Below, one piece after another: positions 8,434 to 21,073 of a DNA stretch of 64,000 nt. Position numbers and translations under genes: made by a program. The stretch comes from Desulfarculaceae bacterium (GTDB lineage: Bacteria > Desulfobacterota > Desulfarculia > Desulfarculales > Desulfarculaceae). The notes under the pieces were generated by a model. That model searched no databases and was not told the origin of the DNA. It saw nothing but the letters and a program-made list of their open reading frames with translations. The stretch is from assembly GCA_021737145.1 (NCBI GenBank), contig JAIPEN010000005.1, forward strand, positions 242,896 through 306,895, given 5' to 3'. Position 1 is the stretch's first letter. Each line of letters opens with the position of its first letter.

Positions 8434-8462
<29 letters not shown>
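8055..8462 (-). CDS. small putative exported protein of unknown function
   Basis: 135 aa with signal peptide (MYAKRIWAYSLLCYCLLLGITATAAWAGPA), nested between livF- and livK-like genes; start overlaps the livF 3' end. Confidence 0.55.
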
Positions 8463-9130
<668 letters not shown>

Positions 9131-9138
<8 letters not shown>

Positions 9139-9898
9139 TGGCCTGCCTCCCCAGATACACCTCGATCACCTTCGGGTTGGCCCGAATCTCCTCGGGCTCG
9201 CCCTCGGCGATGAGCTCTCCGTAGTCCAGGACGAAGACCCGCTCGGAAATGTTCATCACCAGGCGCATGTTGTGTTCCACCAAGCCCACGGTGATGCCGG
9301 TTTCCTGAATCTTGCGGATGGTCCCCAGCATGCGCATGGACTCCATGGGGTTCATGCCCGCGGCGGGCTCGTCCAGCAGCAGGAGCTTGGGCTCCACGGC
9401 CAGGGCGATGGCCACGTTGAGCAGCTTTTGCTCGCCGTAGGGAAGGTTCTGGGTGACCAGGTCCTTCTTGTCGGCCATGCCCATGAACTCCAGAATCTCC
9501 AGGGCGTGCTCCTGCTTCTTCTGCTTTTGATCCCGCGCGGTCCGGTTGGCCAGCAGCGACTGCCACAGTGAGGTGTGGTCATGCAGATGGTGGCCCACCA
9601 TCACCGCCTCCAGCACGGTGAGGTCGCGGAATATCTTGGTCTGCTGAAAGGTGCGCACCACGCCCAATTTGGCGATTTCCGAGGTGGCCATATGGCTCAT
9701 CTCGGTGCCTTGGAAGAGCACCGAACCCGAATCGGCCCGGGTCACCCCGGTGATGAGGTCGAACAGCGTGGTCTTGCCGGCTCCGTTGGGACCGATGATG
9801 CTGACGATCTCGTTCTCCCGGATGCTCAGGCTTATGTCGCTGTTGGCGTCGACCCCGCCGTAGGACTTCGATAGATTGCTGATCTTTAGAAAATCCAT
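9131..9898 (-). CDS. livG: branched-chain amino acid/amide ABC transporter ATPase LivG-like
   Basis: GPNGAGKTTLFDLITG, LPYGEQKLLNVAIALAVEPKLLLLDEPAAGMNPMES. Confidence 0.92.
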
Positions 9899-9913
9899 GC
9901 TTCTTTCCGCCGC

Positions 9914-10870
9914 CTAATTTTCCAGCGATGCGCCGCGCTGCTTGGTTTGTTCCACCAAGCCCACGATGCCCTTGGGAAGGAAGATAACCACCAGCATGAG
10001 CATCAGGCCGTATATGACGAACTGCAGGTCCCCGGCGAAGCGCAGCACCTCGGGCAGGGCGGTGAGCAGGACCGCTCCGACAACCGGCCCCACGATGGTG
10101 CCCCTGCCGCCGACGATGACCATGGTCACCAGGTAGATGGATTCGCCCAGGGTGAAGGAATCCGGACTGATGAACATGGTGTAGTGGGCGTAGAGGCTTC
10201 CGGCCGCGCCCGCCAAGGCGGTGCTGACCACAAAGGCCAGCATGCGGCAGTTGCGCGGATGCACGCCCAGGGAGGCGGCCAACAGGGAGTCCTCCCGGGT
10301 GGCGATGAAGGCCTCGCCGAACTTGTAGCGCAGCAGGTTTCGCACCAGGATCAACACCACGATCATCACCGCGAAGGCCAGGTAATAGAAGGCGAGCTTG
10401 TCACCGAAGGAGATGGTCCAGCCGAAGATTTCCAGGGTTCCCGGCGAGGGGATGCCCGGCAGGCCCATGGGCCCCCGGGTCAGGTCCACCAGGTTGATGA
10501 TCAAAAGCACCACGATCCCCTGGAAGCCCAGGGTGGCGATGGCGAAGTAGTGCCCGCTCAGGCGCAGGGACGGGATGCCGATGATGAGGCCCATGAACCC
10601 GGCGGAAACCACCGACAGGGGGAAGGCGGCCACGAAGGGGAGGCCCAGCTTGACCATGAGCAGGGCCGAGGTGTAGGCCCCGATGCCGTAAAAGGCGCCA
10701 TGGGCCAGGGAAAGCTCCCCGATGTAGCCCACGATGATGCCCAGGCTCACCGCCAGGATGATGTTGATCACCGCCGCGATCATGATGTGCTGGTAAAAGG
10801 CCTCGTTGAACACCAGGGGCAGGGCCAGCGCGGCCAGGATGACAAGCCCTTTGGGCGCTAACTTAGGCAC
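9914..10870 (-). CDS. livM: branched-chain amino acid/amide ABC permease LivM-like
   Basis: LSGHYFAIATLGFQGIV, RGPMGLPGIPSP, VIVGGRGTIVGPVVGAVLL. Confidence 0.92.
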   Translation of the reverse strand: MPKLAPKGLVILAALALPLVFNEAFYQHIMIAAVINIILAVSLGIIVGYIGELSLAHGAFYGIGAYTSALLMVKLGLPFVAAFPLSVVSAGFMGLIIGIPSLRLSGHYFAIATLGFQGIVVLLIINLVDLTRGPMGLPGIPSPGTLEIFGWTISFGDKLAFYYLAFAVMIVVLILVRNLLRYKFGEAFIATREDSLLAASLGVHPRNCRMLAFVVSTALAGAAGSLYAHYTMFISPDSFTLGESIYLVTMVIVGGRGTIVGPVVGAVLLTALPEVLRFAGDLQFVIYGLMLMLVVIFLPKGIVGLVEQTKQRGASLEN

Positions 10871-11747
10871 GGGCGCCTCCCCCGCTTCCGAAGATGCCGG
10901 TCGGCTTGGTCAAAAGCACCAGGATCATGATGGAGAAGCCGATGATGTCCAAAAACTCGGCGGGCATCACCGCCCCGGCCAGGGTTTCCAACAGGCCCAG
11001 GCCCAGGCCCGCCACGATGGAACCGGTGATGCTGCCCATGCCTCCCACGATCACCACGATGAAGGCCTTGACGATGATGTGGATGCCCATGGCCGGCTCG
11101 GTGACGAACATGGCGCCCACCAGGGCCCCGGCGATGCCGGCCAGCATGGAGCCGATGAGGAAGGTGGAGGCGAAGACCCGGTCGGTGTTGACCCCCACGA
11201 TGCGCGCGGCCTCGTAGTTCTGGGCCGTGGCCCGCATCTGGTTGCCCAGGGAGGAGTACTTGACGAAGTAGGCCAGCAGGGCCACCAGCAGGAAAGCCAC
11301 CAGGACCACCAGCAGGCGTTGGGTGGTGAGGTAGACGTTGGCATAGTGGATGACCTGCTTCATGTAGGGAGAGGGGATGCGCCTTAGGTCCGGGCCGAAG
11401 ATGAAGTTGACGCCGTAGAGCAGGAAGGTGGAGAGCCCCACGGTGACCAGCACGTAGTTGATGGGGTGGGGGTTGCGCTTGCGCAGGGAGCGGATGATGA
11501 CCCGTTCGGTGATCAGGCCGAAGACGCCCACGATAACCGCCGTGGCCAGGATGGCCAGCGGATAAGGCAGGCCCAGGCTGCTGACGCACAAAAAGGCCAC
11601 GAACGCGCCGATCATGTAGAACTCGCCGTGGGCGAAGTTGACCACGTCGATGATGCCGAAGATGAGGGTCAGGCCCAGGGCCACCAGCACGTATATGCTG
11701 CCCAAGACAATGCCGTTGACCACCAGTTGGGGAATGAACTCAATCAT
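10863..11747 (-). CDS. livH: branched-chain amino acid/amide ABC permease LivH-like
   Basis: QLVVNGIVLGSIYVLVALGLTLIFGIIDVVNFAHGEFYMIGA. Confidence 0.93.
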   Translation of the reverse strand: MIEFIPQLVVNGIVLGSIYVLVALGLTLIFGIIDVVNFAHGEFYMIGAFVAFLCVSSLGLPYPLAILATAVIVGVFGLITERVIIRSLRKRNPHPINYVLVTVGLSTFLLYGVNFIFGPDLRRIPSPYMKQVIHYANVYLTTQRLLVVLVAFLLVALLAYFVKYSSLGNQMRATAQNYEAARIVGVNTDRVFASTFLIGSMLAGIAGALVGAMFVTEPAMGIHIIVKAFIVVIVGGMGSITGSIVAGLGLGLLETLAGAVMPAEFLDIIGFSIMILVLLTKPTGIFGSGGGARA

Positions 11748-12564
11748 GTTGGGCCTTCCGCGCCGTGGCCCCGTAGAGCGACGGGCAGCGGTCTTCCCAG
11801 AGGTCTATCTCGTATTCGCCGGGCACCTTGACCAGGCGCTTGTTCCGCGATAGCGACAGGTCCATCTCGGCCAGGGCCACCCCCTCCTGGGCGTCCGGCA
11901 CGCTGGCGACGGTGTTGCCCTCCGGATCGATAATGGCCGAGCCTCCGACGAACTCGTAGCCCTCCTCCACGCCCACCCGGTTGGAGGAGACGATCCACAC
12001 CCGGTTTTCCGCCGCCCGGGCGGGCATCAGCAGGCTGGGGATCACCTTGGCCCCGGTGGGCCAGTTGCTCATGCCCACCAGGAGATCGGCTCCCTCAAGG
12101 GCCAGACAGCGGGCCAGCTCCGGGAAGCGCCATTCATAGCAGATGCACAGGCCAACCTTGCCCAGGGGGGTGTCGAACAGGCCCAGGCGGTCGCCGGGGG
12201 TCACGAAGCGGTCCAGGCCCAGAAAAGGCAGATGGGACTTGCGGTACAGGTGCATCTCGCCTTGGCTGGTGATGAACACCGCCGAATTCAAGAGCACGCC
12301 GTCCTTCTTCTCCAACAGGCCCAGGGCCAGGTTGCGCCGCTGCTCCTTGGCCAAGGCGATAAGCTGGTCCACAAAGGGGCCGGGTATGGTGTCCGCGTGG
12401 GGCAGCGCTTCCTGGAGGGAGTTGAAGGCGCCGCCGGAGTTGGCCAACTCGGGAAACACCACCAGGTCCGCCTGGGTTTGGCCGGCCATCTCGAGAATTC
12501 TGGCCTTGTTATCTTCCGTACGGGCCAGGGCCACGTCCATTTGCACGGTGGCGGCTTTCACCAC
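11740..12564 (-). CDS. carbon-nitrogen hydrolase (nitrilase superfamily, aliphatic/omega-amidase-like)
   Basis: VVFPELANSGG (Glu), KSHLP (Lys), GLCICYEWRFPELAR (Cys) catalytic triad context. Confidence 0.9.
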   Translation of the reverse strand: MVKAATVQMDVALARTEDNKARILEMAGQTQADLVVFPELANSGGAFNSLQEALPHADTIPGPFVDQLIALAKEQRRNLALGLLEKKDGVLLNSAVFITSQGEMHLYRKSHLPFLGLDRFVTPGDRLGLFDTPLGKVGLCICYEWRFPELARCLALEGADLLVGMSNWPTGAKVIPSLLMPARAAENRVWIVSSNRVGVEEGYEFVGGSAIIDPEGNTVASVPDAQEGVALAEMDLSLSRNKRLVKVPGEYEIDLWEDRCPSLYGATARKAQHD

Positions 12565-13433
12565 GACAACACCTCCTTGGGTAGTTCAAAGGCCACGGTC
12601 GCGTCGCCGTTGACCACTTGGCAGATACGGGCGTTGCCCGCGATGGATGCGAACATGTAGGCGTCCTTTTCGCTGACGCCCATGCGCTCCACCTGGGCTT
12701 TCACCGCCCGTTGCAGGGCGGCCATGACCGCCTGGTCCAGGGTGGGGGCCGAGGCCAGGAAAAGAGTCTTGTGGGGAGCCAGGATCACCGGCCCTTCCAG
12801 GGGGGTGTCCGGGGCCAGGCCGATGGTCAGGCTCACCTCGGCGTCGATCTCCACCCCCGAGCCGCTCACCTCGCCCTCGCCCATGGCCGCGTGCACGTCG
12901 CCCAGAGAGAGGTTGCCGCCAGGCACCAGCACCGGCAGCAGGAGCTGGTGGCCCTGGGTCAGGTCCACGCAGTCCAGGTTGCCGCCGTGCACCCCGGGGT
13001 AGCGGGTGAGGGTTTCGCTGGGCGTAGCCACCCCCACGATGCCCACCATGGGGCGCAGGGGCACGCGCAGGCCCGGAGCCAGCTCCACGTCATCGGCCAC
13101 CTGGAACTCGCGCACATACAGGGGGTCGTCCGGGTTCAGGCCCAGCAGGCCCAGGCCGGGCCGTATCCAGGCGTGGCCGGCCGGGGCCAGGTCGATGCGC
13201 TCGATGGTGACCATCAGGGTGTCGCCGGGCTTGGCCCCCTCCACCGCGATGGGGCCGGTGACCGGCAGCAGGCGGGAGCGGTCCACCGGGGTGTTCAGAC
13301 CGGGGCGTATCTGGCCGTTGGAGGCGTCGCGGGTCTCCACCTCGAGCCTTGCGCCGGGCTGGACAGTGAGCACCGGGGGCACCGATGGCGCGAAAACGTG
13401 ATGGATGTGCTCCTCGGTTCGGGAAAGTCGCAT
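12558..13433 (-). CDS. acetamidase/formamidase family protein (FmdA/AmdA)
   Basis: TGPIAVEGAKPGDTLMVTIERIDL; GGNLDCVDLTQGHQLLLPVLVPGGNLSLGDVHAAMGEGEVSGSGVEID. Confidence 0.9.
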   Translation of the reverse strand: MRLSRTEEHIHHVFAPSVPPVLTVQPGARLEVETRDASNGQIRPGLNTPVDRSRLLPVTGPIAVEGAKPGDTLMVTIERIDLAPAGHAWIRPGLGLLGLNPDDPLYVREFQVADDVELAPGLRVPLRPMVGIVGVATPSETLTRYPGVHGGNLDCVDLTQGHQLLLPVLVPGGNLSLGDVHAAMGEGEVSGSGVEIDAEVSLTIGLAPDTPLEGPVILAPHKTLFLASAPTLDQAVMAALQRAVKAQVERMGVSEKDAYMFASIAGNARICQVVNGDATVAFELPKEVLSW

Positions 13434-13438
13434 CTATA

Positions 13439-14233
13439 TTAGACTCCGTGACCCAGGTGGGCCGATATTTCCGAAGCGGTTTTGTTGAGCAGGTTGCCCA
13501 GCTCTACGATCTTTGCAGGGGTCATGTTCACGTGCAGGGTGCCGATGGCCATGGCGGCGGCCGGGAAGCCGTTGGCATCCAATACGCAGGCGCCCACGGC
13601 CGAGACCCCGGTGTCGACCTCCTGGTTGCTGTAGGAGTAGCCTTTGTCCAGGATGTTGCGCCGGTCTTGGCGGACCTCCTCCACGGACATGATGGTGTGC
13701 GGGCTCACCTCCACAGGGGTGAACTCGGCCAAATAGCTCTCGAACCGCCCCTCGGGCAGATGGGCCAGGATGGCCTTGGCCGCCGCGCCCACGTGCAGGG
13801 GGAGCCGGCGCCCCACGTCGCAGAAGAAGCTGATGCGCGAGCCGCCGGACAGGCGATCCACGAAAACCACCTCTTTTTGATTTTGGTCCATCACCGCCAC
13901 GGTGATGTCTTCGCCCACCTCCAGGGCCAGGCCCTGCAAAACGTCGTGGGCGATGGTGTGCACCGTTTGGCCGCTTTGGAACTTGCGGGCCAGGGCCAGC
14001 ACCGAATAGTGGAGGCGGAATTTTTTGGTTTTGGGGTCTTGGGACAGAAAGCCGCTGGCCACCAGGGTGTGCACCGCGCGGTAGGCCTTCATCTTGGGAA
14101 TGCCCACGTGCTGGGCTATCTCCGCGAGGCTGGCTTCGTGGGGCAGGCTGGAGAATGCCTCCAGCACCGTCAAAACGGTCTGGGCTGACTTGAGGACTCC
14201 CGGGGCAGCCGCGCTGTCGTCAGGCTGTATCAT
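13439..14233 (-). CDS. IclR-family transcriptional regulator
   Basis: N-terminal wHTH (VLTVLEAFSSLPHEASLAEIAQHVGIPKMKAYRAVHTLVASGFL) plus IclR effector domain (GRRLPLHVGAAAKAILAHLPEG). Confidence 0.92.
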   Translation of the reverse strand: MIQPDDSAAAPGVLKSAQTVLTVLEAFSSLPHEASLAEIAQHVGIPKMKAYRAVHTLVASGFLSQDPKTKKFRLHYSVLALARKFQSGQTVHTIAHDVLQGLALEVGEDITVAVMDQNQKEVVFVDRLSGGSRISFFCDVGRRLPLHVGAAAKAILAHLPEGRFESYLAEFTPVEVSPHTIMSVEEVRQDRRNILDKGYSYSNQEVDTGVSAVGACVLDANGFPAAAMAIGTLHVNMTPAKIVELGNLLNKTASEISAHLGHGV

Positions 14234-14868
14234 AATATGTTACACCATAACTGCATATGATATTACTTTAGCGATTTTGAAAAACCCTGTCAAGGGAAAA
14301 GGCGGGGCACTTTTGAGCTATCTAACTTAACTTATTTACTTTTTTGTAGGGCGCTCGCTGGCTTGTGACCATGTGGGCATTTGTTCGCATGTGTCGCTAT
14401 TTAAAGGACAATGCGGAAAGACCTGCCCGGTTGCCGGCTGGGGCCGGATGTCTAACATCCGCTTTGGTAGGTTTCGGCTAAAAAATTTCCGACTAAGCCC
14501 GAGACGGCCTTCTCATTCAGCCCCGAGGCGGCATGGGCCGCACTTGAGCGGCTCCCCGCTGCGGGCGGCGCCCTGCCGCCCCCGCACCAGGGCCCGCCCT
14601 TACTGTCCAATTGTAACTATGATATCGATTTAATTGACCATATAAGTATGCAGCCATCGCAACAACCTATTTGACTGCCCATCTATTTACGATAAGTAAT
14701 TTAAGGTAGTTGGCTTTGGGAACTCGGGGCAGCCCCCGCGTTCACGGTTGCCCCGGGACAGGGGCGCGTCCGGCCGCGCAAGCACCACCCGGCGGCCGGC
14801 GATAACAACAAAACAAATCAGGCCCCAGCGGATTGCCGCTGGGCGTCGATCAAGGGACTGGGCGCTCC

Positions 14869-16032
14869 ATGGACGCATCCAAGGAAATCAATCACCTGCT
14901 GGACGGCTTCGCCTCCCTGCCCGAACAAAGCCTGGCGCGCCTGGACGAGGCCAAGGAGGCGGGCGTCAAGGTGGTGGGGGTCTACTGCATCTTCGCCCCC
15001 CTGGAGATAATCCGCGCCGCCGGGGCCCTGCCCGTGGGCCTGTGCGGCAAGCGCCAGGAGCCCATCGCCGCCGCCGAGGCCGAACTGCCCTCCAACTTGT
15101 GCCCCCTGGTCAAGTCCTCCTATGGATACGCCCTTACCGGCACCTGTCCCTTTTTCATGGCCTCGGACGTGGTGCTGGGCGAGACCACCTGCGATGGCAA
15201 GAAAAAGATGTACGAGGCCATGGAGCGCATCAAGCCGGTGCACCTGATGCACCTGCCCCACACCGCCGGGCTGCCCCACGCCCTGGACTACTGGCGGGCG
15301 GAGATAGAGCGGCTCAAGGCCTTTTTGCAGGAGCTGACCGGCCAGGAGATCACCCCCGAGGCCTTGCGCCATGAGATAGACCTGCAAAACCGGGTGCGGC
15401 GGCTCGTGGTGGAGCTGCACCGGGTGAACGCCGCCTCCCCGCGCCCGGCCATCTCCGGCGGCCGCATGCTGCCCATCCTGGAGGCCAAGAACTCCTGGCC
15501 CGACCTGGAGGACTTCGCCCAACGCCTGGAGGCCCTGATCGCCGCTGTGGAGGCCTACAACGCCGCCGGCCTGGGCGCCGGCCCCCGCCCGCCCCGGGTG
15601 CTGTTGACCGGCACGCCCATCGGCAAGGGCTCTGACAAGGTGCTGCGCCTGATCGAGGAGGCCGGCGGGCTGGTGATCGCCATGGAAAACTGCACCGGCC
15701 TCAAGGGCGCCTGGACCCAGGTGGACCAGGATGCCGGCGATCCCCTGGATGCCCTGGCCCGGCGCCATCTGGCCTTGCCCTGCTCCTGCATGACCCCCAA
15801 CCAGGGGCGCTACGACCTCTTGGAGGAGCTTATCCCCCTATACCAAGTGGACGGCGTGGTGGATCTCAGCTGGCACGCCTGCCACACCTACATCATCGAG
15901 GCCACCCCCCTGGGCCGTCACCTGGAGGACAAGCTGTCCCTGCCGGTGATGCGCCTGACCACCGATTACAGTGAAAGCGACGTGGAGACCCTGCGCACCC
16001 GCGTGGAGGCTTTCTTGGAGATGCTTTCGTAA
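14869..16032 (+). CDS. 2-hydroxyacyl-CoA dehydratase D-component family, double-cubane-cluster-type reductase
   Basis: GVYCIFAPLEIIRAAGALPVGLCG, SNLCPLVKSSYGYALTGTCPFF, SCMTPNQGRYDLLEELI, DGVVDLSWHACHTYIIEA. Confidence 0.82.
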   Translation: MDASKEINHLLDGFASLPEQSLARLDEAKEAGVKVVGVYCIFAPLEIIRAAGALPVGLCGKRQEPIAAAEAELPSNLCPLVKSSYGYALTGTCPFFMASDVVLGETTCDGKKKMYEAMERIKPVHLMHLPHTAGLPHALDYWRAEIERLKAFLQELTGQEITPEALRHEIDLQNRVRRLVVELHRVNAASPRPAISGGRMLPILEAKNSWPDLEDFAQRLEALIAAVEAYNAAGLGAGPRPPRVLLTGTPIGKGSDKVLRLIEEAGGLVIAMENCTGLKGAWTQVDQDAGDPLDALARRHLALPCSCMTPNQGRYDLLEELIPLYQVDGVVDLSWHACHTYIIEATPLGRHLEDKLSLPVMRLTTDYSESDVETLRTRVEAFLEMLS

Positions 16033-16038
16033 ACCCGC

Positions 16039-16422
16039 TTGCCGCCTGGTTACACGGCGCAAACGCAGACGAAGAAAATCACCCGCCGCGATTTCATGAA
16101 GACCACCGGGACCGCCACCCTAGCCGCCGCCGCGGGCCTGGAAAAGGCGGGCCAAGGCGGCATCCGCCTCAACGGCGGCCAGGTGGAGGGCCCGGCGGCC
16201 GAGCGCTGCGTGGTTTTCCAACGCTACCCCCTGTTCCCCTGGCGCACCGTGCTGGCCAACGTGGCCTTCGGCCTGGAGATGCAGGGCGTGCCCAAGGCCT
16301 CGCGCGATAAAGCGGCCATGCGCTACCTGACCCTGGTGGGCCTGGCCGACCAGGCGGGGGCCCACCCCACCGAGCTCTCGGGCGGCATGCAGATGGCCAT
16401 GCTCCGGCGTACGCCGGACTAA
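16039..16422 (+). pseudogene. chimeric remnant: Tat signal of an SBP-like protein fused to an internal piece of a nitrate/sulfonate-type ABC ATPase
   Basis: TRRDFMKTTGTATLAAAAGLEK joined to GGIRLNGGQVEGPAAERCVVFQRYPLFPWRTVLANVAFGLEMQGV...HPTELSGGMQ, then stop; no Walker A or Walker B. Confidence 0.82.
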
Positions 16423-16666: not shown

Positions 16667-19654
16667 ATGCAGGCAGCCTTGACCCCCAAGCCAGCGGAGC
16701 AGCTCTTCGCCCTGCTCAGTTCCACCGCGGACATGTTCAACCAACGGCCCGAGCTTCAGAGCGAAATGAAGGGAACCCAGGGCTGGATCAACGCCACGGT
16801 GGGCTTCCGTGGCGACGACGGCAGCCTGGGCGCGGCGGTTCAGATCAAGGACGGGATCATCACCGCCTTGGACCACCTTCCCGAGCATAGGGACGCCTGC
16901 CTGGTGTTCCGCACCTCTGCCGACTTCAGCGCATTTCAGGAGGCGAGCAAGGACGAGGCCTCCCAGATGATCCTCAAGGGCCGCATCTGGATCGAGGGAG
17001 CCATCGCCTATTACAACTACGCCGAGTATCTGGTGAACCTATTGTTCCTGGACCAGGCGAAAAGCGTCACCGAACAGGCCATGCACGAACACAAGCTGGA
17101 GAACCTGCGCATCGCCGAAGGGGCCGACACCAGCGGCCGCGATGAAAAGGCGCGGCGCAAAACGGAGCGCCTGCGGGGAGAGAAGCTGGACCCGGGCGTG
17201 GAATGGCTGGAGGATCCTTATCTCTCCGAGTTGGGCATGGAGGATTTCCCCCGCTTGGAGCGCTTCCGCAAGGAGCTGTTCAAGACCAAGGCCCGGGTGA
17301 GCAGCGAGCATGGCAAACTGCTCACCGACTTTTTCGTGGCCAACGGCTACGAGACCATGTCCGACGGCTCCCCCTGGGAGCCCAGCCTGCGCAAGGCCAA
17401 GAGCTTCCATCACCTCATGGACAACCGCCAAGCCTTGATCCGCGAGGGCGATCTGCTGGCCGGCACCTACACCCCCTATCCCATATTCGGTCTGGTCAAC
17501 CAGCCCTACACCTTCGGCTGGCAGGTCTGGGGCGAGCTGCGCACCCTGGGCTTTCGGGAGCTGGATCCCTACAAGATCGACGAGGAGACCATCGAGACCC
17601 TGCACAAGCATGTGATGCCCTTCTTCGCCACGCGCAACATCCAGCACTTATGGAAGGCCGAGTTCGACAACCCACTGGCCGCCCGCATCCACGAGCGCTA
17701 TTTCGCGGTGTTCTATTACAAGACCGTTTCCCACAGCCAGACCACGCCGGGCCACATCAAGGTTTTGCGCGAAGGCCTGGACGGCATCCGCCGGCGCATC
17801 GCGGACGAGCTGGCCAGCGACACCGCAGCGGACCAGGAGAAGAAGGACACCCTGGAGGCCATGACCGTCAGCCTGGATGCGGTATCGGCCTACACCCGGA
17901 ACCTGGCGGAGCAAGCGCGGAAAGAAATCGAGGCCGAGCAGGACCCCGCCCGCAAGGCCGAGCTGGTGGAAATGCTGCGCATCCTGAGCAAGGTGCCCGA
18001 CCGGCCGGCCGAGACCCTGCACGAGGCGGTGCAGGCTCTTTGGATCGTGCACCTATCCCTTGGCCTGGAGAGCAGCGACGACGGGCCCCACCTGGGCCGC
18101 CTGGACCAGATCCTGCAACCCTACTTCGACGCGGACCTGGGCAAGCTGAACACCAACCAGGAGCGCCAGGACTACATCAAATTCGCGGTGGAGCTGATCG
18201 GCTGCCTGTATCTGCGCCTGTCCAGCCACTACAACATCACCATGGAGATCACCTCCTGGATGAACTCGGGCGGGCCGCCTTCCACGACCATCAACCTGGG
18301 CGGGATCACCCCGGAGGGCGGCGACGCGGTCAACGACATGACCTACGTGATCCTCAAGGTCACCGAGCTGCTGAGCCTCAACGACCCCAACATGCACGCC
18401 CGCTTCATGCCGGGGGTCAATAGCGAGACCTATCTCAAGCGGGTCTGCGAGGTGAACTACATCACCGGGGCCACCCCCTGCATCCACAACGACGCGGCGG
18501 TGATCGCCGCCCTCAGCGGGGTCAACCCGGCCTGGCCCCAAGAGGACATCAGAGAGTGGACCGCGGTGGGCTGCGTGGAGCCCTGTTTGTCGGGCATGCA
18601 CTTTCCCGCCACCGGCAGCATCGAGCTAAACCTCATGGCTCCCCTGGAAATGGCCCTGAACAACGGAGTGCATCCCCTGCTGGACTGGGCCCTGGGCCCC
18701 GAGACCGGCAAGGTGGAGGACGGCGACTTCGAGACCTTCGAGGATTTCATGGACGCCTTCACCCAGCAGTACCATTTCCTTTGCGGGGTGAGCGTGGAGG
18801 GCAACAATCAGCTGGGGCACATTCACCAGCAGCACATGCCCTCGCCGTTGATCTCGGCCATTGTTGACGACTGCATCTCCACCGGCCGCGGCATCACCCG
18901 GGGCGGGGCCCGCTACAACACCAGCGGGGTCACCTCCATCGGCATGGCCGACGTGGCCGACTCGCTCAGCGCCATCAAAAAGGCGGTATACGACGACAAG
19001 AAGGTCGGCTTCGCGGAACTCAAGGAGGCGCTCAAGTACAACTTCGAGGGATACAAGGGCCTGAGGGCCTGGATTCAGAACCAGGTGCCCAAGTTCGGCT
19101 CCGGCGACCCCGAAGCCGTGGCCATGGCCCAGCGGGTGACCGCCATGGTGGCGGACTTCGCCCACAGCCAAACCAATTACCGGGGCGGGCACTACACCTC
19201 GGGCTGGTGGTCCATGAACTACCACGCCATCTACGGCCGGGTCTCGGGCGCTTCGCCCTCGGGCCGCCTGGCCGGCGAGGCCTTCACTCCGGGCCTCACC
19301 CCTCAAGCCTCGGCCTCCAAGAACCTTTTGGACAACCTGCTGGACGTGGCCAAGCTGGACCCCACCACCATGGACAACAACATCGCCTTCAATGTGCGCA
19401 TCGTGCCCTCGGCCAGGGACACCCACAAGCAGACCATCACCCGCATGAGCGACACCATTCAGGCCTACTTCGGCCAGGGGGGCATGCAGGTGCAGTTCAT
19501 CATGATCAACACCGACACCCTGCGCGATGCCATGGCCCATCCGGAGTACTACCCCGACCTGCTGGTGCGTATCTCGGGCTACTGCGGCTATTTCACCAAG
19601 CTGCACCGCGATTTGCAGTTGGAGATCATCCGGAGGAACGAGTATGGCCTCTGA
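16667..19654 (+). CDS. glycyl radical enzyme (PFL-like family) with N-terminal SCP2-like domain; substrate not assigned
   Basis: Active-site Cys context AVGCVEPCLSG; C-terminal glycyl-radical motif VRISGYCGYFTKL; N-terminal ~110 aa resembles SCP2; activase immediately downstream. Start chosen at 16667. Confidence 0.9.
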   Translation: MQAALTPKPAEQLFALLSSTADMFNQRPELQSEMKGTQGWINATVGFRGDDGSLGAAVQIKDGIITALDHLPEHRDACLVFRTSADFSAFQEASKDEASQMILKGRIWIEGAIAYYNYAEYLVNLLFLDQAKSVTEQAMHEHKLENLRIAEGADTSGRDEKARRKTERLRGEKLDPGVEWLEDPYLSELGMEDFPRLERFRKELFKTKARVSSEHGKLLTDFFVANGYETMSDGSPWEPSLRKAKSFHHLMDNRQALIREGDLLAGTYTPYPIFGLVNQPYTFGWQVWGELRTLGFRELDPYKIDEETIETLHKHVMPFFATRNIQHLWKAEFDNPLAARIHERYFAVFYYKTVSHSQTTPGHIKVLREGLDGIRRRIADELASDTAADQEKKDTLEAMTVSLDAVSAYTRNLAEQARKEIEAEQDPARKAELVEMLRILSKVPDRPAETLHEAVQALWIVHLSLGLESSDDGPHLGRLDQILQPYFDADLGKLNTNQERQDYIKFAVELIGCLYLRLSSHYNITMEITSWMNSGGPPSTTINLGGITPEGGDAVNDMTYVILKVTELLSLNDPNMHARFMPGVNSETYLKRVCEVNYITGATPCIHNDAAVIAALSGVNPAWPQEDIREWTAVGCVEPCLSGMHFPATGSIELNLMAPLEMALNNGVHPLLDWALGPETGKVEDGDFETFEDFMDAFTQQYHFLCGVSVEGNNQLGHIHQQHMPSPLISAIVDDCISTGRGITRGGARYNTSGVTSIGMADVADSLSAIKKAVYDDKKVGFAELKEALKYNFEGYKGLRAWIQNQVPKFGSGDPEAVAMAQRVTAMVADFAHSQTNYRGGHYTSGWWSMNYHAIYGRVSGASPSGRLAGEAFTPGLTPQASASKNLLDNLLDVAKLDPTTMDNNIAFNVRIVPSARDTHKQTITRMSDTIQAYFGQGGMQVQFIMINTDTLRDAMAHPEYYPDLLVRISGYCGYFTKLHRDLQLEIIRRNEYGL

Positions 19655-20585
19655 GATACGCTCCGGCCGACCCTTGATCATCGACATCAAGGGCAACTCC
19701 CTGGATGATGGGCCGGGCACCCGCTCGGTGGTGTTTATGAAGGGGTGCCCCCTGAACTGCGCATGGTGTCAGAACCCGGAAAGCAAGAAGATCGCCCCGG
19801 AGTTGTGGTTCGAAACGGACAAGTGCGTGTCCAGCGGGGAGTGCGTGCCCGCCTGCCCCGAGGGGGCCCTTGGCCCGGGCGACCCCTTGGTCATTGACCG
19901 GGATAAGTGCACCCTGTGCTTCGACTGCGTGGCCGCCTGCCCCTCCACCGCCCTGCGGCGGGTGGGCCAGGACATGACCGTGGAGCAGGTGGTGGCCAAG
20001 ATCGCGCCCTACAAGCCCTTCTTCGATACCACCGGCGGCGGGGTCACCTTGTCCGGAGGGGAGCCCACCCTGTTCATGGAGTTCACCTCCCAGCTGTTGC
20101 AGGCCCTTAAGCAGGAGGGCATTCCCACCCTGGTGGAGACCGCCGGCCTGTTCAACTTCGACGCCTTCGCCGAGCTGGTGCTCCCCTACTGCGACATCAT
20201 CTACATGGACATCAAGCTCATCGACCCCGAACTGCACAAGCGCTGGTGCGGGGTGGACAACACGCGCATCAAGGAGAACTTCATCCGGCTGCACCAGATG
20301 GCCGCGAGTGGCGGCTTCAGCATCAAACCACGCACGCCTCTGATTCCGGGCCTCACCGACACCGACCAGCTAATGGCCGACCTGGCCGGGTTCTATCTGG
20401 CCCACGGGGTCAAGCTGGCCGCCTTGGAGAAGAACAATCCCATCTGGTTCGACAAAAGCGAAAAGGTGGGGGTGGAGCCGGACTTCGCACCCGACGACCC
20501 GGCCCGTGGCTTTTACGATAATGAGCGCTACGCCCTCATCAAGAAATATTTCGAGGACCAGGGCATAACCATCCTTGAATCCTGA
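19644..20585 (+). CDS. glycyl-radical enzyme activating protein (radical SAM)
   Basis: FMKGCPLNCAWCQNPES (CxxxCxxC) plus ferredoxin-like Cys clusters; GGGVTLSGGEPTLF. Overlaps the GRE stop. Confidence 0.93.
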   Translation: MASEIRSGRPLIIDIKGNSLDDGPGTRSVVFMKGCPLNCAWCQNPESKKIAPELWFETDKCVSSGECVPACPEGALGPGDPLVIDRDKCTLCFDCVAACPSTALRRVGQDMTVEQVVAKIAPYKPFFDTTGGGVTLSGGEPTLFMEFTSQLLQALKQEGIPTLVETAGLFNFDAFAELVLPYCDIIYMDIKLIDPELHKRWCGVDNTRIKENFIRLHQMAASGGFSIKPRTPLIPGLTDTDQLMADLAGFYLAHGVKLAALEKNNPIWFDKSEKVGVEPDFAPDDPARGFYDNERYALIKKYFEDQGITILES

Positions 20586-20632
20586 GCGGACCGGCCTGGC
20601 GGGCCGGTGGCACCTTGGCAAAGGAGAGGCAC

Positions 20633-21073
20633 ATGAAGCGATTGTTGCAAGCAACCTTGCTGGGTTTGGCAATTGTCCTGATCGCCCCCGCCGCCCTGGC
20701 TGGCGGCCTGAGCGGGGTGTGGACCCTGGAGATAAGCCAGTACAAGAACACCTGCGGCGGAGAGCCCACCGCGGCCAAGGAGCTGACCCTAACCCAAAAG
20801 GGCCGCGCCCTTACCGCGGCCATCGGGGTCAAGGGGGACGACGGCAAGACCTACACCGGCACCTTCAAGGGCGCCATGGACCAGGACCAGCCACCGGCAA
20901 AGGCCATGCTTCACGGCAAGTTCGAGGTGGCGGGCTTTACCACCGACGAGACCATACAGCTCGAGTTCCCCGATGGCCGGAGCTATACCGGGGCCTCCCA
21001 GTGGAAGATTCAAGCCGCTGACAAAAAGACCACCTGTTTGGGGAGCCAGAAGATAAAGGGGCGCAAAAAGTAA
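20633..21073 (+). CDS. small exported protein of unknown function
   Basis: Signal peptide MKRLLQATLLGLAIVLIAPAALAGG, ~120 aa mature beta-rich sequence with two Cys; follows the GRE activase. Confidence 0.6.
   Translation: MKRLLQATLLGLAIVLIAPAALAGGLSGVWTLEISQYKNTCGGEPTAAKELTLTQKGRALTAAIGVKGDDGKTYTGTFKGAMDQDQPPAKAMLHGKFEVAGFTTDETIQLEFPDGRSYTGASQWKIQAADKKTTCLGSQKIKGRKK

Follow-up and report, generated by a model that had tools for sequence, protein, structure and literature searches.

A clade of Desulfobacterota glycyl-radical enzymes with an N-terminal SCP2-like domain

Among described glycyl-radical enzymes (GREs), a group sensitive to oxygen, those that most resemble the protein reported here are the dehydratases and eliminases, such as HypD (6vxc), the B12-independent glycerol dehydratase GDH (1r8w), and CutC, which combine a GCVEP-type Cys and Glu with a glycyl loop and a dedicated activase. 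The X-succinate synthases BssA and MasD are GREs that act on hydrophobic substrates in anaerobes, and X-succinate synthases are GREs of Desulfobacterota (PMC12583861). The alkylsulfatases Pisa1 (secondary) and SdsA1 (primary) provide a precedent for an SCP2-like domain on the chain of an enzyme of long alkyl chains, although their catalytic domain is a metallo-beta-lactamase and their SCP2-like domain is C-terminal. Here we analyze a 64,000-nucleotide stretch (the window) of contig JAIPEN010000005.1 from a Desulfarculaceae bacterium with a genome of 4.03 Mb, and describe a GRE with this Cys, Glu, and glycyl loop and an activase of its own, ~30% identity to HypD, GDH, and CutC over a GRE core of ~800 amino acids, and an N-terminal domain that very probably has the SCP2 fold (SCP2-GRE). 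In the open full text that we searched, with subscription papers outside the search, no GRE with an SCP2, sterol carrier, or sterol-binding domain is described, and a paper on the benzene 'Magic' cluster and one on a limonene GRE showed no link to this architecture. The branch is thus apparently undescribed in that literature; database entries with the architecture surely exist.

The glycyl-radical enzyme and its N-terminal domain

The GRE gene begins with an ATG at 16667, close behind a Shine-Dalgarno sequence (AAAAGGAG), and ends with a stop at 19654. Residues 196-857 of its product match the Pfam PFL-like domain (PF02901; 509 bits) and residues 873-977 match Gly_radical (PF01228; 79.7 bits), with the Gly placed in an RxxGY motif. 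Alignment of full-length members of the family showed that Cys636, Val637, Glu638, Gly971, and Tyr972 are present in 35/35, and we regard it as virtually certain that the window protein is a GRE. The activase gene starts at an ATG (19644) that overlaps the GRE stop (four bases inside the end of the GRE frame, plus the stop), and the two genes are translationally coupled; the activase scores 246.6 bits against the TIGR02494 cut-off of 174.35. These domains, the loop around Gly971, and the activase score agree with a reading made earlier from the letters of the DNA (the sequence-only reading), which had called the pair a full GRE, with a GCVEP active site and a glycyl-radical loop, plus its activase. 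Both the GRE query and the TIGR01774 model matched the host genome at this one place only.

The same reading had assigned the N-terminus, whose quoted sequence is present in the protein, to the SCP2 family. On its own, the N-terminal domain of the window protein gave no Pfam match at E <= 10 and no match by sequence in the PDB. Homologous N-terminal domains, however, matched SCP2 (PF02036) independently in 12 of 25 cases (best 3.7e-5), and their profile, set against the (mostly free-standing) SCP2 domains encoded by related genomes, gave an hhalign probability of 89.5 (E 2e-6). An AlphaFold2 model of the domain (mean pLDDT 64.8, and 72-82 over most of residues 41-110) has its elements in the order expected of SCP2, namely a helix, four strands, two helices, a strand, and a helix. 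Since this model is of moderate confidence and was built on a four-sequence alignment, we used it for recognition of the fold and not of a cavity. A Foldseek search of the PDB with this model placed SCP2 proteins, or proteins that contain SCP2, in each of the first 28 positions (probability 1.00, best E 2.6e-5); UbiJ-SCP2 is the best match, and Yarrowia SCP2, AF1534, and the C-domains of alkylsulfatases are also among the top ones. The resemblance is therefore, as judged from the profiles and the predicted model, well beyond chance in fold, topology, and profile-level similarity, though very remote in sequence, and the domain differs from UbiJ-SCP2, SCP2, and AF1534 in being fused to a radical enzyme.

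The SCP2 domain and the catalytic clade travel together. Every full-length member of the clade has the domain, whereas the domain profile found no match at 22 other GRE loci (0/22), which argues that it has been selected for together with the catalytic domain. This retention across a deep clade bears on a somewhat unlikely alternative, in which the domain acts as a module for structure or docking, serving dimerization or tethering to a membrane or partner (compare the proposed lipid-accessory role of UbiJ), while the GRE performs an elimination on an ordinary small polar substrate. That the best fold match is an accessory protein fits such a module, as does the poor conservation of the domain, which has two invariant residues across 25 sequences, unlike a dedicated binding site; its retention in every full-length member speaks against it. 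Other SCP2-containing proteins of 500-919 amino acids occur in these genomes (G000:C7:180076, G020:C306:3307, and G021:C86), indicating that SCP2 fusions are common in the lineage.

Placement among glycyl-radical enzymes and the active site

The SCP2-GRE architecture is present at 42 loci (L002 and L052 are one record, counted once), mostly from Desulfobacterota, together with one Spirochaetota metagenome-assembled genome (MAG) (L004, 57% identical); contigs of viruses contained no relative. Full-length homologues occur in at least 17 of 297 genomes across Desulfobacterota, a lower bound because the query was a single sequence, and the architecture is found in 19/24 genomes of one family and in 3/8 genomes of the window's genus. 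Chain-wide identity is 88-90% among congeners and 38-47% in the rest of the phylum, and the nearest named relative locus (88%) is that of a Desulfarculaceae MAG.

In trees of the GRE core made with FastTree and IQ-TREE, 35/35 full-length members group in a single long-branched clade (support 0.963 in FastTree and at least 95.9/93 in IQ-TREE), whose nearest relatives are uncharacterized GREs (L013 and L005). The clade is separate from HypD, GDH, PflD, CutC and CutC-like enzymes, HpsG, YbiW, and PFL; the trees were built without BssA, IslA, and HPAD sequences, and these three are excluded by scores only. The GRE body likewise falls far below every equivalog cut-off in NCBIfam, with 417 bits for HypD (NF043068; cut-off 1100), 366 for CutC (TIGR04394; cut-off 1050), and 345 for the (2S)-3-sulfopropanediol dehydratase HpsG (NF048011; cut-off 1000). 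The best-scoring model is that of the PFL2-3 subfamily (TIGR01774), which gives 453 bits against a cut-off of 678.2. Although HypD is the nearest curated model, it is scarcely credible that the protein is a divergent member of the HypD, GDH, CutC, or HpsG subfamily, given model cut-offs of 1000-1109 bits and the long branch of the 35 members. We thus ruled out membership of HypD, GDH, CutC, HpsG, and PFL by the curated cut-offs and the two trees. The sequence-only reading had suggested a possible undescribed class of GRE and had named a missing SCP2 fold and clustering within a known subfamily as results that would count against it; the fold was recovered, and the clade lies outside every characterized subfamily that could be tested.

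The hosts, and the hydrophobic compounds suggested by the domain and some neighbours, would also suit an X-succinate synthase-like activator of hydrocarbons that works by fumarate addition. This identity is very improbable: similarity is weak (174 bits for TutD/BssA and 173 for MasD, far below HypD), SCP2-GREs have a Glu after the catalytic Cys, and their conserved neighbourhood contains no small accessory subunits or BssE-type chaperone. We rejected it on the scores and on the lack of small subunits in the recurrent neighbourhood.

The top curated relatives of the GRE body are eliminases (HypD, CutC, and HpsG), in line with our reading of the enzyme as an eliminase. In the PDB ranking HypD (364 bits), CutC (355), and GDH (342) stand far above BssA (174) and PFL (101). 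A Glu two residues after the Cys, as in GRE eliminases, is present in 35/35 members, a feature that is not exclusive to eliminases. Decarboxylase-type GREs also have a Glu at this position. That fact, and an invariant active-site set of the family's own (W848, T649, and S849), leave some room for other GRE chemistry, either PFL-type C-C cleavage or the removal of CO2 from a lipophilic or aryl acid, with the Glu incidental. We consider such chemistry decidedly unlikely, as indoleacetate decarboxylase (271 bits), HPAD (217), and PFL (132) score far under the eliminase models.

The substrate site departs from that of the GRE dehydratases. In the GDH structure, H164, H281, S282, Y339, and D447 contact the diol. 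Among the 35 members S282 is replaced by Gly in 33, H281 by Ala or Asp, Y339 by Asp, Asn, or Ser, and D447 by Asn, Gly, or Ser, while Y640 is Trp in 35/35; H164 is His in 30/35 and Gln in the window's own subclade (Q358 in the window protein). As far as aligned residues can tell, the family has the machinery of a Glu-assisted GRE and its own substrate site. The family signature that follows the linker has D175, V178, and L181 invariant in 19/19 aligned members.

Several loci hold variants or additional GREs. A second SCP2-GRE subtype has a linker insertion of ~35 amino acids (L069, L145, and L146), and a PAS hybrid histidine kinase of 1066 aa comes before it in every case; three of the genomes with this subtype also have the shorter one. 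One GRE copy (L003:2997-5243) is broken, with residues ~147-384 missing and the frame split, which may reflect degradation or misassembly. L137 encodes two GREs: ~5 kb away from the SCP2-GRE is an 838-aa enzyme (L137:10533-14219) that belongs to a different clade and comes with an activase of its own.

Gene neighbourhoods of SCP2-GRE loci

We compared the neighbourhoods of the 42 loci, which reduce to ~26 distinct contexts once syntenic loci are merged. The most constant partners are the activase, a homologue of which adjoins the GRE in most loci that reach far enough, and a TetR regulator immediately upstream, which is present in 18 loci from 9 distinct contexts. Genes for carbonyl redox enzymes recur: a short-chain dehydrogenase/reductase (SDR) lies beside the GRE in 4 distinct contexts (L061, L062, L064, and L148), a zinc-dependent alcohol dehydrogenase (zinc-ADH) in L053 and L137, and a tungsten aldehyde:ferredoxin oxidoreductase (AFOR), of which there are 1-10 genes per genome, opposite TetR within a synteny block that spans one family and, in another arrangement, immediately downstream (L136). 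Genes linked to lipids are found too: in L138 two FadL/TodX channels precede TetR-GRE-activase, a phospholipase A1 adjoins the L061 operon, L140 has a DgkB-like lipid kinase, and the synteny block includes MlaE. The lipid-linked genes are suggestive of a lipophilic substrate and the redox enzymes of a carbonyl product. With respect to the docking module, outer-membrane channels for hydrophobic compounds or phospholipases beside the GRE at several loci count against it, and polar-substrate neighbours at L053 and in the window count for it.

Table 1 Features of the SCP2-GRE locus in the window.
Feature	Coordinates	Strand	Evidence
SCP2-domain GRE, 995 aa	16667..19654	+	Unbroken open reading frame, Shine-Dalgarno, PFL-like and Gly_radical domains, 42 homologous loci
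SCP2-fold N-terminal domain (very probable), ~residues 10-128	16694..17050	+	SCP2 matches of homologues, hhalign, AlphaFold2 and Foldseek
Variable linker, then family signature 'D-x-GV-x-x-L-x-DPYL', residues ~129-195	17051..17251	+	Alignment
Thiyl loop VGCVEPC, residues 634-640, with Cys636 and Glu638	18566..18586	+	Alignment to GDH C433/E435
Glycyl-radical loop RISGYC, residues 968-973, with Gly971	19568..19585	+	Alignment to GDH G763
Radical-SAM GRE-activating enzyme with ferredoxin domain, 313 aa	19644..20585	+	TIGR02494, Radical_SAM PF04055
Small exported protein, signal peptide; possible part	20615..21073	+	Kept in three congeneric loci, cluster C25
HgdB-like double-cubane-cluster reductase; adjacent gene, probably not obligatory	14833..16032	+	NF040772, 461 bits (cut-off 350)

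Around the GRE, the window and its two closest relatives, the loci L051 and L052 (88-90% identical), have only the GRE, the activase, and the small exported protein in common. The upstream IclR regulator, amidases, Liv-type transporter, and HgdB-like gene are not beside the GRE in L051 and L052, so that the HgdB-like gene is unlikely to be an obligate part of the pathway. The small exported protein, which has no Pfam or NCBIfam match above cut-off, lies behind the activase in all three congeners and may therefore belong to the system. Thus, of the two neighbours that the sequence-only reading had proposed as pathway components, the exported protein is retained as a candidate and the HgdB-like protein is not.

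HGD-D proteins nonetheless occur near the GRE in four distinct contexts (the window, L056, L062, and L070), which exceeds expectation from 2-15 per genome. Near SCP2-GREs of different families, HGD-D subunits recur together with a MinD-like ATPase (L056:12-4972, L062:1470-8755, and L070:98-9013), and in L056 and L062 also with a BadF-type ATPase. DUF169 proteins lie close to the SCP2-GRE at L064:13146-13973 and L059:5923-6930. Elsewhere in the window, the minus strand from 8434 to 14233 encodes Liv-type ABC ATPases and permeases, a nitrilase-like amidase, an FmdA/AmdA acetamidase-formamidase-like protein, and the IclR regulator, likely an operon for amide uptake and hydrolysis. A plus-strand open reading frame of 127 aa (16039-16422), in which a twin-arginine translocation (TAT) signal peptide runs into the central part of a TauB/SaoA-like ABC ATPase, is probably what a deletion has left of an ABC uptake system.

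Two specific pathways were considered and set aside. Degradation of sphingoid bases, suggested by a pyridoxal phosphate (PLP) decarboxylase beside the lipid kinase in L140, was dropped; the kinase is DgkB/YegS-like, and the decarboxylase matches those of amino acids, with no match to a sphingosine-phosphate lyase. A connection with ether-lipid synthesis in bacteria was ruled out because the step in question is assigned to Ger/PlsA, not to a GRE (PMC11150832).

A proposed reaction and its implications

The explanation that we tentatively favour is that SCP2-GREs are a new GRE subfamily of eliminases, which would have as substrate a lipophilic and probably hydroxylated compound, bound by the SCP2 domain, and pass a carbonyl product to neighbouring enzymes. 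What can be read from the sequences (the domains, radical residues, Glu638, activase, SCP2 fold, and clade identity) is here combined with established GRE chemistry. The activase would generate a glycyl radical on Gly971, which would be relayed to a thiyl radical on Cys636; this would take hydrogen from a carbon of the substrate to which a hydroxyl or comparable group is attached, with Glu638 acting as general base and a neighbouring leaving group, most simply water, being expelled. Return of the hydrogen would be followed by release of an aldehyde or ketone, as in GRE dehydratases, which may then be reduced or oxidized by the neighbouring SDR, zinc-ADH, or tungsten AFOR. The SCP2 domain may bind the hydrophobic tail of the substrate and present it to the barrel, or collect it from the membrane; candidate substrates are long-chain diols, amino-alcohols, and alcohols derived from glycerolipids.

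Several observations weigh against this explanation. SCP2 folds can be scaffolds, and the assignment of substrate and ligand is putative. The GDH diol contacts H281, S282, Y339, and D447 are not conserved, which indicates that substrate geometry differs from that of simple diol dehydratases, and the full-length AlphaFold2 model (pLDDT 50) was too poor for a test of the pocket and was set aside. The lipid-linked neighbours vary from locus to locus, transketolase halves lie near the GRE in L053, and the window's own neighbours suggest uptake of amides or amino acids, not lipids. Acyl-CoA ligases near the GRE are no commoner than chance; with ~25 per genome their occurrence within 9 kb is unremarkable, and we dropped them as pathway markers. 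The lipophilic or CoA-thioester substrate put forward in the sequence-only reading is putative, and draws on the usual role of the domain and on neighbourhoods that are suggestive yet uneven, while its SCP2 fold, GRE, and new class are borne out.

More specific versions of the eliminase reading are more doubtful. It is rather a speculative suggestion that SCP2-GREs are the first GREs to act directly on membrane-derived or long-chain lipids, by way of their own carrier domain. Equally speculative is a hydroxylated lipid as substrate, such as a monoalkyl- or monoacylglycerol, a long-chain diol, or an amino-alcohol, from which water or an alkoxy group would be eliminated. The clade is compact, with its own activase and a clear signature, and is therefore directly testable. 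If the lipid reading is true, sulfate-reducing bacteria would have an oxygen-independent route for the breakdown of lipid polyols or ether lipids. If the SCP2 domain feeds the active site, the radical chemistry of GREs would reach beyond small polar metabolites and hydrocarbons to include lipids, and a gene that is widespread and uncharacterized in Desulfobacterota would gain a testable role in anaerobic lipid turnover.

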